From assembly GCA_937995655.1 (NCBI GenBank), contig CALKJI010000011.1:62001-126000 (forward strand): a stretch of DNA of 64,000 nucleotides. Direction: 5' to 3'. The first letter of the stretch is position 1; every line of letters starts with the position of its first letter. This stretch comes from an uncultured Pseudothermotoga sp. GTDB taxonomy: Bacteria > Thermotogota > Thermotogae > Thermotogales > DSM-5069. The translations under genes were made by a program, and so were the position numbers. The notes below the pieces were generated by a model. That model was not told where the DNA came from and searched no databases. It saw nothing but the letters and a program-made list of their open reading frames with translations. Below are positions 5,284-50,902 of this stretch, one piece after another.

Positions 5284-7721
5284 TGAAGAAAATCACTCTG
5301 TTTTTTCTTTTGCTTTCTTGTTCAATCCTAGCTTCGGGAAAGTTCAACTTGATAAGGACCTTGTGGATTGATATCGCTTATCAAAACGGTCTGGAAAGAC
5401 ATGCTCTGACCCTTTATCAAAAAGCCGATGATATATATCAGAAAATCTCGAAGGAATTTGGCTTTACTTTGACTCCTAGACCTGTAGTTTATTTGATCGA
5501 CAAAACAGATGTGGCAAATGGTTATGCAAATCCTCTGAACAATATCATCGTGATATACCCAAACGAAATCAACCCTTATGTTTTCACACCCAACTACGAA
5601 GAGTGGGTAAGTTTCTGTTTTGCTCATGAGCTGACACATTTATTCTTAGCAAATTCATTTGCACCATATATTTCATTCGCCTCTGTGTTTGGTCATGCGG
5701 TAGCAGCAGCAATTCAGTCTCTCTTAACTCCTTTGTATCTTCACGAGGGACTTGCAATATATTATGAAACATTGCTTTCGAACTCTGGTCGCGGCAGAGA
5801 TAAGCTTTTCAGAGAATACATGGAAAAAGCTAAGGGTACTGATGTGGGCTTGAGATACGCATCTTCTTTGAATACTCGCAGGTGGTTACCTGGCGGATCA
5901 GCTTATGTTCAGGGTTTCTCGTTGTTGGATTCAGTCGAAAAAAGTTACGGCCACGATAAAGTGGTGGAATTGGTAAAAAGGTTTACTCGAGATCCTCTGG
6001 CTGGTTTTTATAGAGCATTGAAGAACACCTCAATAGAAGACGATTTCAAGGACTGGTTGACCAGAGTACCATCAAACGGCGAAAAGATCTCGGAGATACT
6101 CCTACGCGCAAGTAAATTGGACATAAATGCCTGGAGGGTTTATTACATTTCAGAGAAATACAATGGTGAGGAAGCAATTTACTATTACGATACTTTTACG
6201 CAAGAGCACATAAAACTCTTCGATGTAAACAATGTCGCTTCATTTTCCATCAGCAGAACTAGGATGGTAGCACTCGCAAGGTATGTTGAAGAAGGAAACT
6301 CGATCAAATCTCGATTGTACCTTTATAGTGGTACAGTAAAGGACCTTGGTATTGACAAGGTCGTTGATCTGTCGTGGATGAATGATTTTGAGCTTGCAAT
6401 GATCAGGCAAGACGAAGACGGAAAAAGGTTCATCGATATTTATGATTTGAGAGATAGAAAACTGAGAAGAATTTTTGGACCGGATAAATATATCGTTCCA
6501 ATTCAAATAACCGCTTCTGGTGGTAGTATTGTCTTTACAGCAAAGGTGAATGGACAGATGGATTTGTTTATGATAAACGAGGAAAAAAAGGTAAAGAGGC
6601 TTACCGATGATGGTTGTTCGAAATTATCACCAAAGCTTATTTCAAATGAGTTGTATTTCTGTGCAGATTATTCCCATAATTTCGATCTATATCTGTTGGA
6701 TATCAATAGCGGGAAGCTCACTAAAATGAATTTGGAAGGTTCGATCAGTAGTGTCATCCTCAATAATTTAGCTTACTCATTCAAAGTTGTCCCTGGTGGT
6801 TTTTCTATTTACAAAGAGCAAATAAATCCAGAAAGTAAGAGTACCTTTGAATTTCAGGACTTTGAACCATCGGCGATGGAACTTACAAGATTAGAAAATG
6901 CAGAGAATTACTATGATTCCATGAGACTCAGATTTGTCTTGCCTTTTCCCTATCTATCCTTTAATTCAGGGAAACCGGATTATGGAGCTGGGCTCGCTTT
7001 AGGGCTTTGGGACGATTTGATGGATTCATACGTGGTCTTTGGATGTGTATGGTCTTGGGAAAAATGGTTAGCTAAATTCGTGACCAAATCGCAATCTGGT
7101 TCATCGCTGAGTATTCAGTTCGATCAGAAGAACGATGTCTTTACACTTACAACTGAGCTTGATATACCATTTTACATAAATAAGGGTTTGATGGATGAGA
7201 AATTTGATCTGATTTTGGGTATGAACGTGGATCAGACATTATCTGTAAGACCAAAGTTGAGGGTCGTCTATCTCTTGGGTAGGATTGGCGGTAGGTTGCA
7301 TCAAATAAGCTTCCCAGATGTTATGCTCTGGTCCGATATTTTCCCAGATATTGGTATTGGTTTTGCGAAAGCTTTCCTCTTGAAAGACATCGTCTTTAGA
7401 TTTTACGGCCAGGTGAAACTTTCAGATCTGCAGTATGGCGCTGATATGGTTATTCCTGGTCCTTCAATTGATATTGGCTCTATAGATGGCTTCTGGGCAA
7501 TCGATAGTGTGAATTTCTCACCTGGTTTTACTGTAAAAATCAGCGAGGCACAGAATAACTACAACATATGGTTGAAAACAACCCTTAACTGTCATGTGAT
7601 TTACCAAGTCCCTGTTCCTTTATCTTTTACCGTCGGAATTAGAGATGGCAAAGGCTATCTAAGTTTTTCCATAGAAAACATAATGAGCTTTTTTGAACTA
7701 GAGAATTTTTTGAAAAAGTGA
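5283..7721 (+). CDS. Exported gluzincin-like peptidase with TolB-like propeller and beta-rich C-terminus
   Basis: An 812-residue protein. A signal peptide (KKITLFFLLLSC, cleavage probably near residue 20) leads into a gluzincin zinc-peptidase domain: HELTH at 115-119 gives two His ligands and the catalytic Glu, and LHEGLA near 153-158 supplies the likely third ligand. From about residue 270 to 540 are repeats like those of WD40/TolB propellers (for example NGQMDLFMINEE). The last 250 residues alternate hydrophobic strands like an outer-membrane or surface beta domain. I infer a surface protease tied to the outer envelope. ATG 5283 is chosen over the track GTG because it overlaps the udk stop and follows GGAG. 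Confidence 0.65.
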   Translation: MKKITLFFLLLSCSILASGKFNLIRTLWIDIAYQNGLERHALTLYQKADDIYQKISKEFGFTLTPRPVVYLIDKTDVANGYANPLNNIIVIYPNEINPYVFTPNYEEWVSFCFAHELTHLFLANSFAPYISFASVFGHAVAAAIQSLLTPLYLHEGLAIYYETLLSNSGRGRDKLFREYMEKAKGTDVGLRYASSLNTRRWLPGGSAYVQGFSLLDSVEKSYGHDKVVELVKRFTRDPLAGFYRALKNTSIEDDFKDWLTRVPSNGEKISEILLRASKLDINAWRVYYISEKYNGEEAIYYYDTFTQEHIKLFDVNNVASFSISRTRMVALARYVEEGNSIKSRLYLYSGTVKDLGIDKVVDLSWMNDFELAMIRQDEDGKRFIDIYDLRDRKLRRIFGPDKYIVPIQITASGGSIVFTAKVNGQMDLFMINEEKKVKRLTDDGCSKLSPKLISNELYFCADYSHNFDLYLLDINSGKLTKMNLEGSISSVILNNLAYSFKVVPGGFSIYKEQINPESKSTFEFQDFEPSAMELTRLENAENYYDSMRLRFVLPFPYLSFNSGKPDYGAGLALGLWDDLMDSYVVFGCVWSWEKWLAKFVTKSQSGSSLSIQFDQKNDVFTLTTELDIPFYINKGLMDEKFDLILGMNVDQTLSVRPKLRVVYLLGRIGGRLHQISFPDVMLWSDIFPDIGIGFAKAFLLKDIVFRFYGQVKLSDLQYGADMVIPGPSIDIGSIDGFWAIDSVNFSPGFTVKISEAQNNYNIWLKTTLNCHVIYQVPVPLSFTVGIRDGKGYLSFSIENIMSFFELENFLKK

Positions 7722-40171: not shown

Positions 40172-40219
40172 GTTGTTCAAATTCTTGTTGTTATAAAATC
40201 TATGTGGAGGTACCTAGGC

Positions 40220-42139
40220 TTGGAAAGAAAGATATACCTAAAAAAACAAGATGTTGATATGGCATTGAAGTTGTACAAGGACAGATTATATGAAGCTGGG
40301 TTTTTCACCCCAAGAACAGAAACTCTGCCAACAATAAAAGCACTTGGCAGGGTCCTCGCGAAGTCGGTTTATGCTAACAAGAGTGTCCCAACCTATAACA
40401 GTGCGGCAATGGATGGAATATTCGTGAGAAGCTGTGATACAGTTGGAGCAACCAAAACTAACCCCAAGATTCTCACCCAAGGTCAGTTCAAATTTGTGAA
40501 CACTGGTAATGTTCTGGAACCACCCTTTGATGCAGTAATAATGATCGAAAATCTTCACATAGTCGATGACAACCACATTCAAATTTTTGAATCCGTACCG
40601 CCCTTTCATAATATTCGTTTGGTGGGAGAAGACTTATGTGAAAAAGATATGATCTTTACACGATATCATCGCCTGAAGGCCTACGACCTCTCTTTGTTGC
40701 TTGCTAGCGGCGTTCTTGAAGTAGAGGTTATTAAAAAAATGAATGTACTTGTTATTCCCACGGGAGATGAAGTAGTCCCACCAGAGAGCATAGTCTATGA
40801 TGGCTTAATTCCCGAGACAAACTCCACACTCATAGCAAATTACCTGAAGGAGCTAGATGTAACTGTACACATACACCCACCCGTTCAAGACTGTTTTGAG
40901 TCCATTGTATCTGTCGTTTCGCAAGCAATTTCCTGTTATGACATGGTTCTGATAAACGCAGGCTCATCGGCGGGCAGTTTTGACTACTCCTATCATGTGC
41001 TCAGTAAGTTGGGACAAGTCATAGCTCATGGATTGAATATTCGGCCTGGAAAACCCACGATATTGGCATTGGTGAATGACAAACCTGTTATTGGTTTACC
41101 AGGGTATCCTGGCTCTTGTTTCGTGGTGCTTGAGCAGATTGTCAAGCCTATAGTTTTTGAGAAATATAAGACTTTGCCGAGTAACGAAGGCATCGTGGAA
41201 GCTATTTCGACTCGTAGGATATTTTCTTCCATTTCAGAAGATGAAATCATAAGAGTCAGTCTTTCAAAGATAAATGATAAATATGTGTTTGTACCACTCA
41301 AAAGAGGCGCTGCAACAATGGAAGCTCTCACAAAGATGGATGGGACCGTCATTGTACCAAAGGGAACCGAGGTACTGGATGAGGGCCAAAAAGTTATCGT
41401 GAAAACCTGTAAATCAATTGAAGAGATTGATAAAAACATTCTTTTCGTAGGAAGTAACGACCCACTAATATCCATTCTAGCAGATTTGATCAAAGCGAAG
41501 GATTTCACATTGAACCTGAACATAGCAAATGTGGGGAGCATGGGCGGCTTGATGGCAATCGCTAAAGGTTACGCCCACATTGGTGGTATACATTTGTTGG
41601 ATCTTGATTGTGGTGAATATAACCTTCCCTACGTGAGGAAATATTTAAAAAATTTTGTACTTGTGAAATTCATAAAGCGTAATCAGGGTCTAATTGTTCA
41701 AAAATCAAATCCAAAAGGAATAAAAGCACTTGAGGATTTAACTCGAGAAGATATAAGATTCGTTAACAGGCAGAAGGCTTCTGGTACAAGAATCTTGCTT
41801 GATTACCACCTCTCAAAACTTGGTATAGATACATCCCAGATAAGTGGTTACGACGATGAGGAGTTTACACATATAAATCTTGCCTTGAAAATAAAGAAGG
41901 GTTTGGCAGATGCAGGACTTGGAATAGCATCGGTGGCACAGATCATGGATTTGGATTTCATTCCTTTGTTTTGGGAAGAATATGATTTGTTGGTTTTGCC
42001 AGAATTTACAAAGGACTACAGATTTCAATTGATAATGAATTTGATACTTTCTGAGGAATTTCGCAACAGTGCGTTGACATGGCAAGGGTATGATCTTTCA
42101 GATGCAGGAATAGTTATTAGGGGTGATGATATTGATTAG
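40220..42139 (+). CDS. MoeA fused to a PBP-like domain
   Basis: A 639-residue fusion. Residues 1 to about 405 are MoeA-like, with SAAMDGIFV, PTGDEV, NAGSSAGSFDYS and GLPGYPGS. The C-terminal 230 residues match the PBP-like/LysR-substrate type domain (ILFVGSNDPLISILADLI, NRQKASGTRILLDYHL), found fused to MoeA in clostridia and archaea. MoeA ligates molybdate or tungstate to adenylated molybdopterin; the extra domain may sense or deliver an oxyanion. TTG 40220 lies 9 bases past GGAGG; the track ATG contains that site. First gene of a long operon. Confidence 0.88.
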   Translation: MERKIYLKKQDVDMALKLYKDRLYEAGFFTPRTETLPTIKALGRVLAKSVYANKSVPTYNSAAMDGIFVRSCDTVGATKTNPKILTQGQFKFVNTGNVLEPPFDAVIMIENLHIVDDNHIQIFESVPPFHNIRLVGEDLCEKDMIFTRYHRLKAYDLSLLLASGVLEVEVIKKMNVLVIPTGDEVVPPESIVYDGLIPETNSTLIANYLKELDVTVHIHPPVQDCFESIVSVVSQAISCYDMVLINAGSSAGSFDYSYHVLSKLGQVIAHGLNIRPGKPTILALVNDKPVIGLPGYPGSCFVVLEQIVKPIVFEKYKTLPSNEGIVEAISTRRIFSSISEDEIIRVSLSKINDKYVFVPLKRGAATMEALTKMDGTVIVPKGTEVLDEGQKVIVKTCKSIEEIDKNILFVGSNDPLISILADLIKAKDFTLNLNIANVGSMGGLMAIAKGYAHIGGIHLLDLDCGEYNLPYVRKYLKNFVLVKFIKRNQGLIVQKSNPKGIKALEDLTREDIRFVNRQKASGTRILLDYHLSKLGIDTSQISGYDDEEFTHINLALKIKKGLADAGLGIASVAQIMDLDFIPLFWEEYDLLVLPEFTKDYRFQLIMNLILSEEFRNSALTWQGYDLSDAGIVIRGDDID

Positions 42140-42644
42140 GGCGGCCGTGATCACTTTGAGTGACAAAGGCTTCACCGGCGAAAGGGAAGATCAAAGCGGG
42201 AAAATGGTAATTGAAATGCTTCAACAGATAGATGCAGTTGTTGAGTATTACAAGATCTTACCTGACGAATTTGATCTGATAAAAAAGGAGCTTTTAAACC
42301 TGTGCCAAAAGAACTTTGATCTCATAGTTACCACCGGTGGAACAGGCGTATCACCAAGAGATGTCACACCCGAGGCGACACTGTCGGTTATAGAAAAAAG
42401 ATTGTATGGAATGGAAATAGCAATGATGATAGAATCTTTGAAACAAACACCCTTTGGAATGCTCTCTCGAGCTGTCGCTGGTGTGAAAGGTCAGACGTTG
42501 ATAGTTAACCTTCCAGGTAGCCCAAAGGCAGTCCAGGAAAATTTAAAGCCCATCTTAGCTGCAATCCCACATGCTGTTGAAAAAATAAAAGGATCAACGA
42601 CTGACTGCGCAATACAGAAGACGGGGAAAGATCATGAAGATTGA
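42132..42644 (+). CDS. Molybdopterin adenylyltransferase (MogA/MoaB family)
   Basis: A 170-residue enzyme that activates molybdopterin by AMP transfer before metal insertion. The family pattern is clear: AAVITLSDKGFTGEREDQSG at the start, VTTGGTGVSPRDVTPEA and NLPGSPKAV. TTG 42132 is spaced 6 bases past AGGGGTGA and overlaps the end of the MoeA-PBP gene; GTG 42123 and ATG 42126 are too close to that site. MogA and MoaB cannot be separated by eye. It overlaps moeA by 11 bases. Confidence 0.9.
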   Translation: MIRAAVITLSDKGFTGEREDQSGKMVIEMLQQIDAVVEYYKILPDEFDLIKKELLNLCQKNFDLIVTTGGTGVSPRDVTPEATLSVIEKRLYGMEIAMMIESLKQTPFGMLSRAVAGVKGQTLIVNLPGSPKAVQENLKPILAAIPHAVEKIKGSTTDCAIQKTGKDHED

Positions 42645-43866
42645 ATTCCTAAAATTTGCTACAGTTCAAGAGGTTTATGAGAATTATATTTCAAAGATCA
42701 GACCTATAAACAGAATTCAAACCATTGAAGCGATTCAAGCTTCAGGTTATGTGTGTGCAAGGGATATCGTTTCACCAGAGAACTTGCCTGGTTTTGACAA
42801 GTCTTTGGTCGATGGTTATGCCGTCAGATCGTTGGATACAAAAGGATCCTCAGCGAACCTACCAGCCCTATTGAAAGTAGTTTTTGAAGTTAGAATCGGG
42901 GAAATACCCAGCTATAGATTGCAGCCTGGTGAAGCAGCCTGGATACCAACTGGCGGTGCTTTACCTTTTGGAGCAGATGCCGTGGTCATGGTTGAGCACA
43001 CCCAGGCATTTGACGACCTAGTGGAAGTTATGAAACCAGTTGCTGCTGGAGAAAACGTAATGAAGTGTGATGAGGACGTCAAGGTTGGCGATGTTGTATT
43101 GAAAGGAAACAAGAGGATAAGGGTAAATGATATACAACTAATTGTGCAACTTGGAATCACAGAAGTTGATGTCTACAGTCGTGCAAAGGTTGCGGTAATA
43201 TCCACCGGAGACGAGATCATTGAGCCTTGGATGAAACCTTCTTTAGCTCAGGTCAGAGACAGTAATACCTACGCCCTTGTCTTGTGGTTAAAGGATATGG
43301 GGTTTGATGCTCAAAGGGTAGGACACGTAAAGGATGATGAGGAAGCTTTATACCAAGTACTGAAAAGTTGTCTTGACAACTATGATGTTGTTGTAATAGC
43401 TGGTGGGAGCTCGATTGGTACTCGCGATCATACAGCGAGAGTGATTGAAAAACTTGGTGAGCCGGGTATTATTTATCATGGTGTTATGGTGCAACCGGGT
43501 AAACCAACGGTTTTTGCTTTGGTCGGGCAGAAACCAATCCTAGGTCTTCCGGGAAATCCTGTTTCCTTTTTTGTTAGCAGTAGATTCTTTTTACTACCTA
43601 CTTTAAGAAGAATCGAGAACGAGGATGAATTTATGCCCAAGCCTTGTGGATTGGTAAGACTCACTAGGAACGTACCATCTGTACAAGGTCGCGAGCATTT
43701 TGTAAGGGTCAAACTGAAGTTTGAAAAGGGCGATATCTTGGCAGAACCTCTTTTCAGTGAAACTGCCCATCTTTCAAACATATCTGCCGCAGACGGTGTT
43801 GTGAGGGTTCCTTCGCAAGTTGAAGGAATCTATGCGGGTCAGCTTGCTGAGTTCTACAGATTCTGA
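42634..43866 (+). CDS. moeA: Molybdopterin molybdenumtransferase MoeA
   Basis: A 410-residue protein inserting molybdate (or tungstate) into adenylated molybdopterin. Family segments in order: LPGFDKSLVDGYAV, IPTGGALPFGADAVVMVE, VAVISTGDEI, IAGGSSIGTRDHT and LGLPGNPVS. This is a stand-alone MoeA next to the MoeA-PBP fusion. Two paralogs may serve Mo and W separately, as proposed for archaeal pairs. The start overlaps the Mog gene. Confidence 0.93.
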   Translation: MKIEFLKFATVQEVYENYISKIRPINRIQTIEAIQASGYVCARDIVSPENLPGFDKSLVDGYAVRSLDTKGSSANLPALLKVVFEVRIGEIPSYRLQPGEAAWIPTGGALPFGADAVVMVEHTQAFDDLVEVMKPVAAGENVMKCDEDVKVGDVVLKGNKRIRVNDIQLIVQLGITEVDVYSRAKVAVISTGDEIIEPWMKPSLAQVRDSNTYALVLWLKDMGFDAQRVGHVKDDEEALYQVLKSCLDNYDVVVIAGGSSIGTRDHTARVIEKLGEPGIIYHGVMVQPGKPTVFALVGQKPILGLPGNPVSFFVSSRFFLLPTLRRIENEDEFMPKPCGLVRLTRNVPSVQGREHFVRVKLKFEKGDILAEPLFSETAHLSNISAADGVVRVPSQVEGIYAGQLAEFYRF

Positions 43867-47189: not shown

Positions 47190-47968
47190 ATCTATATCTT
47201 GACGTGATCTCAAAGAGGAATGACGGCTACCACAATATAGTCGGGTTATTTCAAACTATCGATCTATGCGATGTGATCGAATTTCGTACAACAGATCGAC
47301 CAGGTCAAGTCATGATACAGTCCAATGTGAGGATCGAAGGAATGAATTTGATTGAGAAGGCTTTCAGAATATGCTCTGAGTACTATAGAATTGACTTTGG
47401 TATGGAGGTCAAGTTATCCAAAAGGATACCAATTGGTTCGGGTTTGGGTGGCGGCAGCTCAGACGCTGCTGCAACTCTTAGATTTCTTTCAAAGATAATC
47501 AACATACCACAAGATACACTCTTTCAAATTGCTGCGAAGGTGGGATCCGATGTACCATTTCTTCTGAGAGGTGGTACCGCCATTGTTGAAGGAAAAGGAG
47601 AAAGCGTAACATTTCTTGAACCCATAAAGGATTACACAGTGAATCTTTTTTGCCCCAAGATCAGCATCTCAACCAAGATGATGTATCAAAGGCTTGGTCA
47701 GGAAAACTATGGCAGGGGGCCTAAGCCAGTTGAAAGATTGTACGAGGCTTATAAGAATATGGATGCGCAGATGATAAGATCTTTTTCTTACAACGTTTTT
47801 CAAGATATCGTCTGTGGTGAATACCCAGAAATAAAAGAAAATCTTGACATAGCTTGGAGAGAAAATCCAATAACGGCACTGATGACAGGTACAGGCTCTT
47901 GCGTCTTCAGTGTACATGACATTGGAGGAAAACACAAATTCATAACCACTCTTTTTGATAACCGATAA
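47141..47968 (+). CDS. ispE: 4-diphosphocytidyl-2-C-methyl-D-erythritol kinase
   Basis: A 275-residue GHMP kinase of the non-mevalonate isoprenoid pathway. AYGKVNLYLDV and RNDGYHNI match the substrate site, PIGSGLGGGSSDAAATL is the ATP-binding motif, and MTGTGSCVF closes the fold. It overlaps the NUDIX gene by 49 bases. The GTG start at 47141 lies almost on the GAGGGG ribosome binding site; an AUA at 47147 would have better spacing, so the exact start is open. It ends overlapping the convergent gene by 29 bases. Confidence 0.93.
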   Translation: MVIFNAVETERAYGKVNLYLDVISKRNDGYHNIVGLFQTIDLCDVIEFRTTDRPGQVMIQSNVRIEGMNLIEKAFRICSEYYRIDFGMEVKLSKRIPIGSGLGGGSSDAAATLRFLSKIINIPQDTLFQIAAKVGSDVPFLLRGGTAIVEGKGESVTFLEPIKDYTVNLFCPKISISTKMMYQRLGQENYGRGPKPVERLYEAYKNMDAQMIRSFSYNVFQDIVCGEYPEIKENLDIAWRENPITALMTGTGSCVFSVHDIGGKHKFITTLFDNR

Positions 47969-49631
47969 CTGCTGCTCCTAAGGCACCGGTTAGAATCGGT
48001 TCTGGTGGAATTGTGATTTGGATGTCAAGGACTTTCTCAAGGGCCTTTTTTACACCTTCGTTCAATGCCACACCACCGGTCAAGACTACTGGCGGTGCAC
48101 CTTTTACCCGCTCGTACATGGCACCTATTCTTTTCGCAATTGCTTTGTGAATTGCGTAGAGTATGTCTTCTCTCTTGTGGCCAGAAGCTCTGAGTGAAAC
48201 TACCTCAGATTCTGCAAAAACAGTACAGACACTGCTGATATCTATTTCCTTGGAATGTTGTAACGACAAACCACCTATTTTTTGTAGTGGTACGTCGAGA
48301 ACATCTGCCATGACTTCGAGAAACCTACCGGTTCCCGCAGCACATTTGTCGTTCATGGCAAACTCAACGACCTTGCCATCTTCGATCTTTATTACCTTGC
48401 TATCTTGCCCTCCTATGTCAATTATTGTCCTGATCTTGGGCATGAGGAAATGAACACCCCTCGCATGGCAAGTGATCTCCGTTATTTGTTCATTTGCAAA
48501 ATCAAGTGCCGCCCTTCCATAACCAGTACAAACAAGGTAGATCCTTTCACGGGGCCTTTTGAATTTCTCAACAACATCGTTATAGAGCTTTTTTGCCGTG
48601 ACTGCCGGATAAGCTCCTGTCTTCACAACGTTCTTATACACGACTCTTTTCTCCGCGTCAATAACAGCGATTTTTGTCGTAGTCGAACCACTGTCGATGC
48701 CAACGAATAGATCAAACATTTTTTCACAACCACTCCCTTTGTTCATTGAGAATTCCATTAATGCTTGGATCCTTGTTTTGATTTGAGCATTCAGCTGAGG
48801 TGTCATGTCATTTTCTATAACAACAAATGGCATCTTGATCTTTCGCAATTCCTGTTCGTCAAAATTGTAAAAGTCACAAAATTTGATCGTGTGAAGAACT
48901 ATCATAGTAGGCTTTGTTATATTGATCAACTCCGATAAATTTCTTTTCGGGGCGAACCTCAGACACGTCAATTTTCTGTTTAGAATCCTGTATGCAATTC
49001 TTCGAAAAATATTGCTATCATCTGAGAGGTTTGAAATCATGGAATAAGCGCCCGAACAGGTTGCATTGATGACACTACCACCACTTTCTTCTATTATCTG
49101 GACTAAATTTTCTTCAATAGGTGCACCCAAGACTAAGACAACTTTGTCTTTCAACTTTGTGGAACCTACCCACTTTTGTTTGGTAATCTTTTCATAGAGA
49201 TCTCTAGCCTCACTTAGATCTTCTGATAAGGCTTTTTCCAGCAGTTGTAATTGCTTCTCGAAAATCTTTTGTGCTTGAGAGAGCTTCTGATCGCTGACTT
49301 CACCAAAAATAGATTTCAAAAATTGCCATAGTGTCTTCAGATCATTGGACAGTTCTGTTACCGCTTCGGGGGTTGAAATAACAGGGATATGTAACGGGAA
49401 AATTTTATTTGTCTGTTTTAGAAAGTCCGCAGTTCTTCTCGCTGAATCACACGAATCAATCCAAATGACTACATCGTCACTGTGAACCGAAAGAACCGAT
49501 CTTCTGCATAGTGAGCAGATATTAGGATTGAGCCTGTCGAATTCACAACCAAGGTTTTCGACTCTTTTAAAGGGTACTCCGAGTGCCACAAAGAACTCGA
49601 AAGGAACCATCGGACAATTGTATACGATCAT
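47940..49631 (-). CDS. HgdB-like domain fused to HgdC-type ASKHA ATPase
   Basis: A 563-residue two-part protein. Residues 1-295 resemble a 2-hydroxyacyl-CoA dehydratase subunit, with cysteines at 29, 39, 42, 61, 192, 223 and 252. From about residue 308 an ASKHA ATPase begins (FVGIDSGSTTTKIAVID), with IIDIGGQDSKVI and the two cluster cysteines of HgdC-type activases in NDKCAAGTGRFLE and SVCTVFAESEV. Such ATPases fire electrons into a low-potential iron-sulfur acceptor on ATP hydrolysis. The partner gene overlaps (ATGA). No acyl-CoA ligase, transferase or crotonase is adjacent, so the substrate is unknown. Confidence 0.87.
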   Translation of the reverse strand: MIVYNCPMVPFEFFVALGVPFKRVENLGCEFDRLNPNICSLCRRSVLSVHSDDVVIWIDSCDSARRTADFLKQTNKIFPLHIPVISTPEAVTELSNDLKTLWQFLKSIFGEVSDQKLSQAQKIFEKQLQLLEKALSEDLSEARDLYEKITKQKWVGSTKLKDKVVLVLGAPIEENLVQIIEESGGSVINATCSGAYSMISNLSDDSNIFRRIAYRILNRKLTCLRFAPKRNLSELINITKPTMIVLHTIKFCDFYNFDEQELRKIKMPFVVIENDMTPQLNAQIKTRIQALMEFSMNKGSGCEKMFDLFVGIDSGSTTTKIAVIDAEKRVVYKNVVKTGAYPAVTAKKLYNDVVEKFKRPRERIYLVCTGYGRAALDFANEQITEITCHARGVHFLMPKIRTIIDIGGQDSKVIKIEDGKVVEFAMNDKCAAGTGRFLEVMADVLDVPLQKIGGLSLQHSKEIDISSVCTVFAESEVVSLRASGHKREDILYAIHKAIAKRIGAMYERVKGAPPVVLTGGVALNEGVKKALEKVLDIQITIPPEPILTGALGAAVIGYQKEWL

Positions 49632-50875
49632 TCTATCATCTCCAGGAATGCCTCTATGCGTGTTCTATACTGAGCAGCAGATTGATTGGTGTGATCAACG
49701 CAGTCACCGTCTAATGACAAGAATGGTATTCCAATTTGTTCAAAGTTTTCCTTCAGTAGAGTAACGGATCCAGAGGACTGCTTGCAACCCCAATGGTTGA
49801 AATGGATTGCTCCCTTAACCTTAAAATCCTTCGCGAGCCTTAACGCGAAATCAGCTCTTCTTGAGAGATCACCTATCTGTGGGTTTTTCAAGAGTTTTTC
49901 TGATAAAGATTCTACAGGCCTTTGTGGATCCGGATTCCAGTAAAGCCAATCCCATTCAAATTCAGTTGTTGCGATCATGAATCTGGAATTTTTTGAGAAA
50001 ATATTGTACAGTTCATTGTCATAATAAGGTACCAAATGAAGCCACAACAACCTTATTCTGTTGTTATTCGTTGCATGTTCTTCCCGTTTCAGCAAAGTCC
50101 TTGCTGCCTTCAGTAATTGATTTGGTCTTAGATGAAAGGCATAGAGAACATTCACATGTTGATAGAGATCCATGAGAATAGGATTTTCACAAAGTTTTGA
50201 ATAGTATTCTCTGATTATATCAAGTGATTGCTTTTCCTCGGTGATAATTCTTTGAAGTGCTGAATAGTTGAATCTTTTCTTGAGCTGATTTTCAAGTGAA
50301 TATATGAGATTCTCAAGCTGTTTGGTCACGTAAGCTCGGTTCTGCTGGTTATCTTCGCGTGGAACATCGATCACATGAATGGGAATGGAATTTATTGAAG
50401 CATAGGTGGTGAAAGTGGGAATATTTCCGTCACACAGGATATTTGTGGTACCAACAAAGAGCGGCTTGGGTAAGATATTGAGTAAGGCTATCCCAATACC
50501 CGTTCTGTGAAAGGTGCACAGATTTCTTGAAATACCAAAACCTTCAGCTTTTGTGATTGCCAGATCTTCCAAAAACATAGAGGCAAACATTCCAGCGAGT
50601 CCCTCGGCGGAGACACAGTTTAAACCAAAAGAAAAGGCGATCTCCACTGGAAAGAACATGTTTACCCAAGCTGTCTTCTTACCATTCACGGCAGTGCAGA
50701 CTGCGTCTAATGCAAAGTAGTCCATCCAAGTGGTGAAGTCATTTCTCGCAAAGGCGACCACTCTTCTTCTTGAGAGCTCCAAATTGAGTCCTACCTTTAG
50801 CAAAATTTCTACAACTCTTGGTTTATGGAAATGTTTTCTTAAGATTTTTCCAAATCCAACACTCTTTTTACTCAT
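49628..50875 (-). CDS. HgdB-like / double-cubane-type iron-sulfur protein
   Basis: A 415-residue protein of the 2-hydroxyglutaryl-CoA dehydratase D-component superfamily. Conserved cysteines lie in NLCTFHRTG (C120), ILCDGN (C148) and FNHWGCKQSSG (about residue 350); the last motif and LSLDGDCVD are typical of HgdB and double-cubane proteins. In that family the cysteines hold a [4Fe-4S] or [8Fe-9S] cluster that the ASKHA partner reduces. ATG 50875 follows GGGGGTATCT; the longer track start is not supported. It is transcribed divergently from glmS. Confidence 0.85.
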   Translation of the reverse strand: MSKKSVGFGKILRKHFHKPRVVEILLKVGLNLELSRRRVVAFARNDFTTWMDYFALDAVCTAVNGKKTAWVNMFFPVEIAFSFGLNCVSAEGLAGMFASMFLEDLAITKAEGFGISRNLCTFHRTGIGIALLNILPKPLFVGTTNILCDGNIPTFTTYASINSIPIHVIDVPREDNQQNRAYVTKQLENLIYSLENQLKKRFNYSALQRIITEEKQSLDIIREYYSKLCENPILMDLYQHVNVLYAFHLRPNQLLKAARTLLKREEHATNNNRIRLLWLHLVPYYDNELYNIFSKNSRFMIATTEFEWDWLYWNPDPQRPVESLSEKLLKNPQIGDLSRRADFALRLAKDFKVKGAIHFNHWGCKQSSGSVTLLKENFEQIGIPFLSLDGDCVDHTNQSAAQYRTRIEAFLEMIE

Positions 50876-50902
50876 AGATACCCCCAAAGTTTGCTAAAAA
50901 AC

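Follow-up and report, generated by a model that had tools for sequence, protein, structure and literature searches.

Among double-cubane enzymes, the class I benzoyl-CoA reductase BzdNO has been described as the first whose role is defined; the [8Fe-9S] ligands of its BzdN subunit are Cys36, 73, 100, 263, 293 and 327 (PMC11971306). DCCP, whose role is unknown, reduces acetylene, azide and hydrazine (PMC11971306). We compared these systems, and the (R)-2-hydroxyisocaproyl-CoA dehydratase HadBC with HadI, with a pair of overlapping genes of a heat-loving anaerobe, called A and F here, located in a stretch of 64,000 nucleotides (the window).

The archerase, the double cubane and the three-Cys active-site subunit are known parts. 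As far as the literature searched shows, the recognition of the A/F clade, the fusion of the ATPase to the double-cubane half and the conservation of the pair without acyl-CoA pathway genes are new; no paper on the fused pair was found there. Within the benzoyl-CoA reductase / 2-hydroxyacyl-CoA dehydratase superfamily, A/F is a distinct and conserved branch that is apparently undescribed; we expect that sequence databases probably hold many of its proteins under generic dehydratase names.

Organization of the A/F gene pair

The features of the locus are given in Table 1. A is one full HGD-D protein, while F joins a shortened HGD-D half to an ATPase. Both belong to the HGD-D superfamily, with PF06050 scores of 220.5 bits for A and 108.4 bits for F against a curated cut-off of 28.4, and F scored 276.4 bits against the archerase cut-off of 125.4 for TIGR00241. 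The Pfam domains of F were HGD-D (7e-31, aa 6-293) and BcrAD_BadFG (3e-68, aa 310-557), and its ATPase matched 4eht and 1hux with E-values of 4e-63 and 1e-61. The bridging Cys430 (MNDKC) and Cys469 (SVCTVFAESE) of F are in register with Cys127 and Cys166 of HgdC; both were present in seven full-length F proteins and the archerase ATP motifs were intact. Rather than being a separate homodimeric protein, the archerase of F is fused C-terminally to the HGD-D half. The reading of the earlier note, an HgdB-like gene with CTFHR, CDGN and WGCKQ motifs overlapping a partner made of an HgdB-like half and an HgdC-type ATPase with both bridging cysteines, was thus borne out by the motifs of A and the domains of F.

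Table 1. Coordinates of the A/F gene pair and its parts in the window
Feature	Position	Strand	Size and start	Description or basis
Gene A	49628-50875	-	415 aa, ATG at 50875	PF06050 HGD-D 6e-65
Gene F	47940-49631	-	563 aa	HGD-D half + archerase ATPase fusion
F aa 1-300, shortened HGD-D half	48732-49631	-		six invariant Cys, profile alignment to BzdN and DCCP
F aa 308-560, ASKHA ATPase / archerase (HgdC, HadI type)	47952-48710	-		TIGR00241, 4eht/1hux, fold match
ATGA start/stop overlap coupling A to F	49628-49631	-		sequence; GGAG just before

The 4-nt overlap was also observed in many homologous loci. An open reading frame listing stretches A to an alternative TTG start at 50887. Promoter and terminator scans gave results no better than those of shuffled sequences. 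A and F were the sole HGD-D proteins found in the host genome. Outside the window, this genome carries a 1381-aa ORF (G000:C5:155525-156991) that contains two BcrAD_BadFG ATPase domains but lacks an HGD-D match; the ORF, which is a second uncharacterised activase-type system, is also present in many Thermotogae genomes without A/F.

Cluster ligands and active-site residues

Alignments covering two phyla showed that Cys6, 39, 61, 192, 223 and 252 of the first half of F are invariant in 21 sequences and that Cys120, Cys148 and Cys364 of A (motifs LC120TFHR, LC148DGN and WGC364KQ) are invariant in 23 sequences. The loss of cysteines in close homologs, which the earlier note had named as evidence against its reading, was therefore not observed for any cluster cysteine. 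Chance is excluded by the invariance of these cluster cysteines across two phyla and by the retention of the bridging cysteines.

In a profile alignment with the sequences of solved structures, the six cysteines of F corresponded one-to-one, in order, with the six BzdN ligands, and they also fell on the matching cysteines of DCCP. HadC, a dehydratase beta subunit with a single cluster, has no equivalents of BzdN Cys36 and Cys263, whereas F has both (Cys6 and Cys192), so that F is not of the [4Fe-5S] type. The residue at Cys252+3 of F is a tyrosine, as in DCCP/YjiM and unlike BzdN. Cys120, Cys148 and Cys364 of A occupy the three [4Fe-4S] positions of BzdO (Cys95, 128 and 380) and of HadB, and Glu91 occupies the position of Glu55 in HadB, also shared with MbdO. 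At Cys148+3, A has an invariant Asn151 where BzdO has the catalytic His131, and at Cys120+3 it has an invariant His123, which among the sampled HGD-D proteins was found elsewhere only in the sister family. Glu91, like His123 and Asn151, is invariant in the A proteins of the fused-system family, and these three residues make up, with Asp149, an active-site-like conserved set. His280 of A looked specific when compared with the PDB references but is present in another HGD-D subgroup; it was therefore dropped as a family marker, while His123 held.

Judged from sequence, the ligand layout of A and F is that of class I benzoyl-CoA reductase, distributed over two genes with the activase fused. The ligand residues predict an [8Fe-9S] cluster in the first half of F and a site-open [4Fe-4S] cluster in A. 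The two HGD-D halves had been taken as alike in the earlier note, which had to be corrected: F has six cluster cysteines and A three, and this difference carries the mechanism.

Structure models

AlphaFold models of A and F were made without cofactors, from alignments of sequences of the window and related loci only, and were weak around the ligand loops of F. The model of A (pLDDT 82) best matched HadB, BzdO and MbdO, with TM scores of 0.73-0.75; its top PDB matches were 3o3m_A and BzdO (TM about 0.75), and HadB was the closest structure (TM 0.75, E 8e-16). The model of F had a pLDDT of 79 and a pTM of 0.51, which makes its domain packing unreliable. Its C-terminus resembled HadI, HgdC and MbdQ, the archerase part giving a fold match with a TM(target) of 0.84-0.91, while its N-terminus resembled DCCP and HadC.

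Phylogeny and nearest relatives

Maximum-likelihood trees of 56 and 96 HGD-D domains included PDB references together with a broad sampling of clostridial sequences. The A proteins formed one clade (support 100/98), as did the F proteins (97/93 and 98/93 in the two trees), and in both trees these clades were outside HadB/HadC, MbdN/MbdO, BzdN and DCCP/YjiM. The A clade was separate from the group containing MbdO and the partners of BzdN-like proteins (L164, L168), and the F clade was separate from that of BzdN. Placement of both proteins inside a characterised acyl-CoA dehydratase clade would have spoken against the earlier note; the trees instead put them outside HadBC, BCR and DCCP with strong support.

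The sister of A was the A subunit of an unfused clostridial B-A-activase operon (L120-L125, L180-L186). The B subunit of the same operon was the nearest relative of F in the 56-sequence tree, while the 96-sequence tree did not resolve this sisterhood, and the operon is the probable nearest unfused relative of F. These operons resemble the fused pair in their B subunit, which has six cysteines in every tabulated copy, and in the rare histidine at Cys120+3 of A, but differ from it in having three genes, a separate activase and an alanine where A has Asn151. The reading we prefer for F is that of a B subunit joined to the activase. In L120, L122 and L123, the unfused operon is located between a conserved HTH and radical SAM gene pair and a glutamine synthetase gene (glnA); glutamine synthetase and radical SAM were rejected as partners, since this arrangement is not kept in other sister loci.

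A different arrangement was seen at L128:4654-11648, where a HadB/BzdO-like subunit with a histidine at the position of BzdO His131 is clustered with an activase, a thiolase, a PaaK-like CoA ligase and a six-Cys BzdN-like subunit. This cluster is a candidate new aryl- or acyl-CoA reductase.

Distribution, neighbourhood and host pathways

The search for the fused pair covered Thermotogota and the clostridial phylum of genome G061, with an additional plasmid search for A, which gave only weak, unfused-looking matches. The system is not unique to the host genome: of 103 Thermotogae genomes, 25 had the pair. The host family accounted for 10 of these, out of 11 genomes of which the one without the pair is 81% complete; a second family accounted for 14, and one was found elsewhere. 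Families f2 and f3 of the host's order gave no full-length match among the genomes listed. Full-length F was present in 14 of 250 genomes of the clostridial phylum, with partial or broken copies in four more. All complete loci that were examined had A immediately upstream of F.

In one clostridial genome, at L118:5230-8016, an apparent insertion sequence with a 312-aa transposase-like ORF (5718-6656) interrupts F while A is intact. A second clostridial genome has F divided between frames of 103 aa and 415 aa (L109:6857-8477), either a decayed copy or a sequencing error. L049:430-3366 encodes a single chain of 978 aa with an activase and two HGD-D halves, which is an even more complete fusion of the parts found in A/F; its genome also carries the fused pair.

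The genes around A/F in the window comprise molybdopterin genes, a xer recombinase gene, tdk, ispE, glmS, lon and tsaB, of which ispE and glmS adjoin A/F; as stated in the earlier note, no acyl-CoA gene is nearby. At 40202-43866, two different MoeA paralogues, the first of 645 aa with an extra C-terminal domain, flank a MogA/MoaB gene beside an ArsB/MamN-like transporter. A conserved-neighbour search over 25 loci showed that only A and F recur across lineages. A TsaC-like gene was rejected as a partner: it overlaps F by 4 nt in three Kosmotogaceae loci but not elsewhere. This absence of a conserved partner gene suggests that A and F work by themselves or serve some general role.

Acyl-CoA dehydrogenase (PF02770) was found in one of ten host genomes and class III CoA-transferase (PF02515, HadA-type) in two, and both were absent from the genome studied here; class I CoA-transferase was found in nine. 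One host, G006, had none of the three. Since PF02770 and PF02515 are missing from most of the ten hosts, the general role of A/F is unlikely to be in a 2-hydroxyacyl-CoA route of the Stickland type, and a Stickland 2-hydroxyacyl-CoA is probably not the substrate of A/F. The earlier judgement that the substrate is unclear was supported.

Discussion

It is reasonably probable that A and F form a self-contained ATP-driven low-potential enzyme, a reductase that transfers two electrons to a substrate bound on A. The earlier note had proposed a self-contained low-potential reductase; the self-contained architecture stands, while the choice of a reductase over a radical dehydratase was too firm, since one HGD-D layout serves both. 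By homology with BzdNOPQ (PMC11971306) and HadBC/HadI (PMC11574389), from which we infer the electron path, the two-electron chemistry and the location of the active site, a ferredoxin or similar donor would reduce a [4Fe-4S] cluster between two F archerase domains, and ATP hydrolysis would drive single electrons into the [8Fe-9S] double cubane of the N-terminal half of F. Two electrons would be stored there before moving on to the [4Fe-4S](OH2) cluster held by the three cysteines of A, where a substrate near Glu91 and the family-specific His123 would undergo a two-electron reduction. Because two ATPase domains hold the archerase cluster between them, we expect a working unit of A2F2 or larger.

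Several observations go against this reading. Unfused heterodimers with the 6-Cys + 3-Cys layout are common in clostridia and some of them may be dehydratases, so that six cysteines are no proof of reductase chemistry; class I CoA-transferase is present in most hosts, and BzdO His131 is replaced by Asn151 in A. A more specific version is tentative: A/F would be a free-standing double-cubane reductase, driven by ATP and with its active site at a [4Fe-4S](OH2) cluster, that acts on a non-CoA substrate in hosts without the Stickland acyl-CoA pathway. If true, it would be a physiological double-cubane reductase outside benzoyl-CoA degradation.

A radical dehydratase of 2-hydroxyacyl-CoA or another acyl-CoA, in which the beta subunit kept an ancestral double cubane and one electron is recycled over many turnovers, is rather unlikely. 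The closeness of A to HadB in structure, the Glu55 position and the class I CoA-transferases of the hosts are consistent with it, but F kept all six double-cubane cysteines, unlike HadC, and the pathway enzymes acyl-CoA dehydrogenase and HadA-type transferase are absent from 9 of 10 and 8 of 10 hosts, respectively. None of the conserved neighbourhoods contains a CoA or 2-hydroxyacid gene, and the scores with NF052455 and NF052456 (72.2 vs 750 and 25.5 vs 700 bits) are far below the HadB/HadC equivalog cut-offs, in agreement with the position of A and F outside those clades.

The six cysteines of F and the tyrosine at Cys252+3, which match DCCP/YjiM rather than BzdN, the isolation of the A/F genes, like that of E. 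coli yjiM-yjiL, and the small molecules known to be reduced by DCCP would fit a reductase with catalysis at the double cubane of F and an accessory or structural role for A. We consider this unlikely: none of the A proteins has lost the cluster ligands or the catalytic glutamate, a pattern that fits an active site better than an accessory subunit, and A and F are two different HGD-D chains that scored 71.8 and 64.4 bits with the DCCP model NF040772 (cut-off 350 bits), whereas DCCP is a homodimer.

It is very unlikely that A/F is an electron donor or maintenance system that supplies another protein of the cell with electrons of very low potential instead of turning over a metabolite. Two standalone genes in nearly all genomes of the host family, with no conserved pathway neighbour, are what such a system would show, but the conserved Glu91, His123, Asp149 and Asn151 of A suggest substrate chemistry, and no candidate client was found. 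Aryl-CoA dearomatisation of the benzoyl-CoA reductase type, which the common cofactor-ligand layout with BzdNO would suggest, is highly improbable given Asn151, the separation of A from the MbdO / L164, L168 group and of F from the BzdN clade, and HGD-D subunit scores of about 31 bits or less against BCR equivalog cut-offs of 448 or more (TIGR03190/03191/02260).

With all electron-transfer parts in two polypeptides of cultivable thermophiles, A/F offers a compact system in which to study how ATP drives electrons to very low potentials, and makes the question of what else double-cubane enzymes reduce directly testable.

Comparison of A/F with class I benzoyl-CoA reductase (BzdNO + BzdPQ) showed that a six-Cys subunit for [8Fe-9S] (F), a three-Cys [4Fe-4S] subunit (A) and an ASKHA ATPase for electron activation are shared, whereas in F the ATPase is fused to the double-cubane subunit, which is about 70 aa shorter; the catalytic histidine of BzdO is an asparagine in A, the clades are separate and aromatic-degradation genes are not near A/F. 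With HadBC + HadI, A shares the fold, the three cysteines and the Glu55 position of the HadB alpha subunit, and the archerase domain of F is closest to HadI and HgdC. However, HadC has single-cluster ligands only, a type of beta subunit that F does not match, HadI is a separate homodimer, and the Stickland genes are missing from most A/F hosts. With DCCP + DCCP-R (E. coli YjiM/YjiL), A/F shares the six double-cubane cysteines, in F and not in A, and a standalone two-gene system, while DCCP is a homodimer with two double cubanes and A/F is predicted to be a heterodimer with only one six-Cys subunit.
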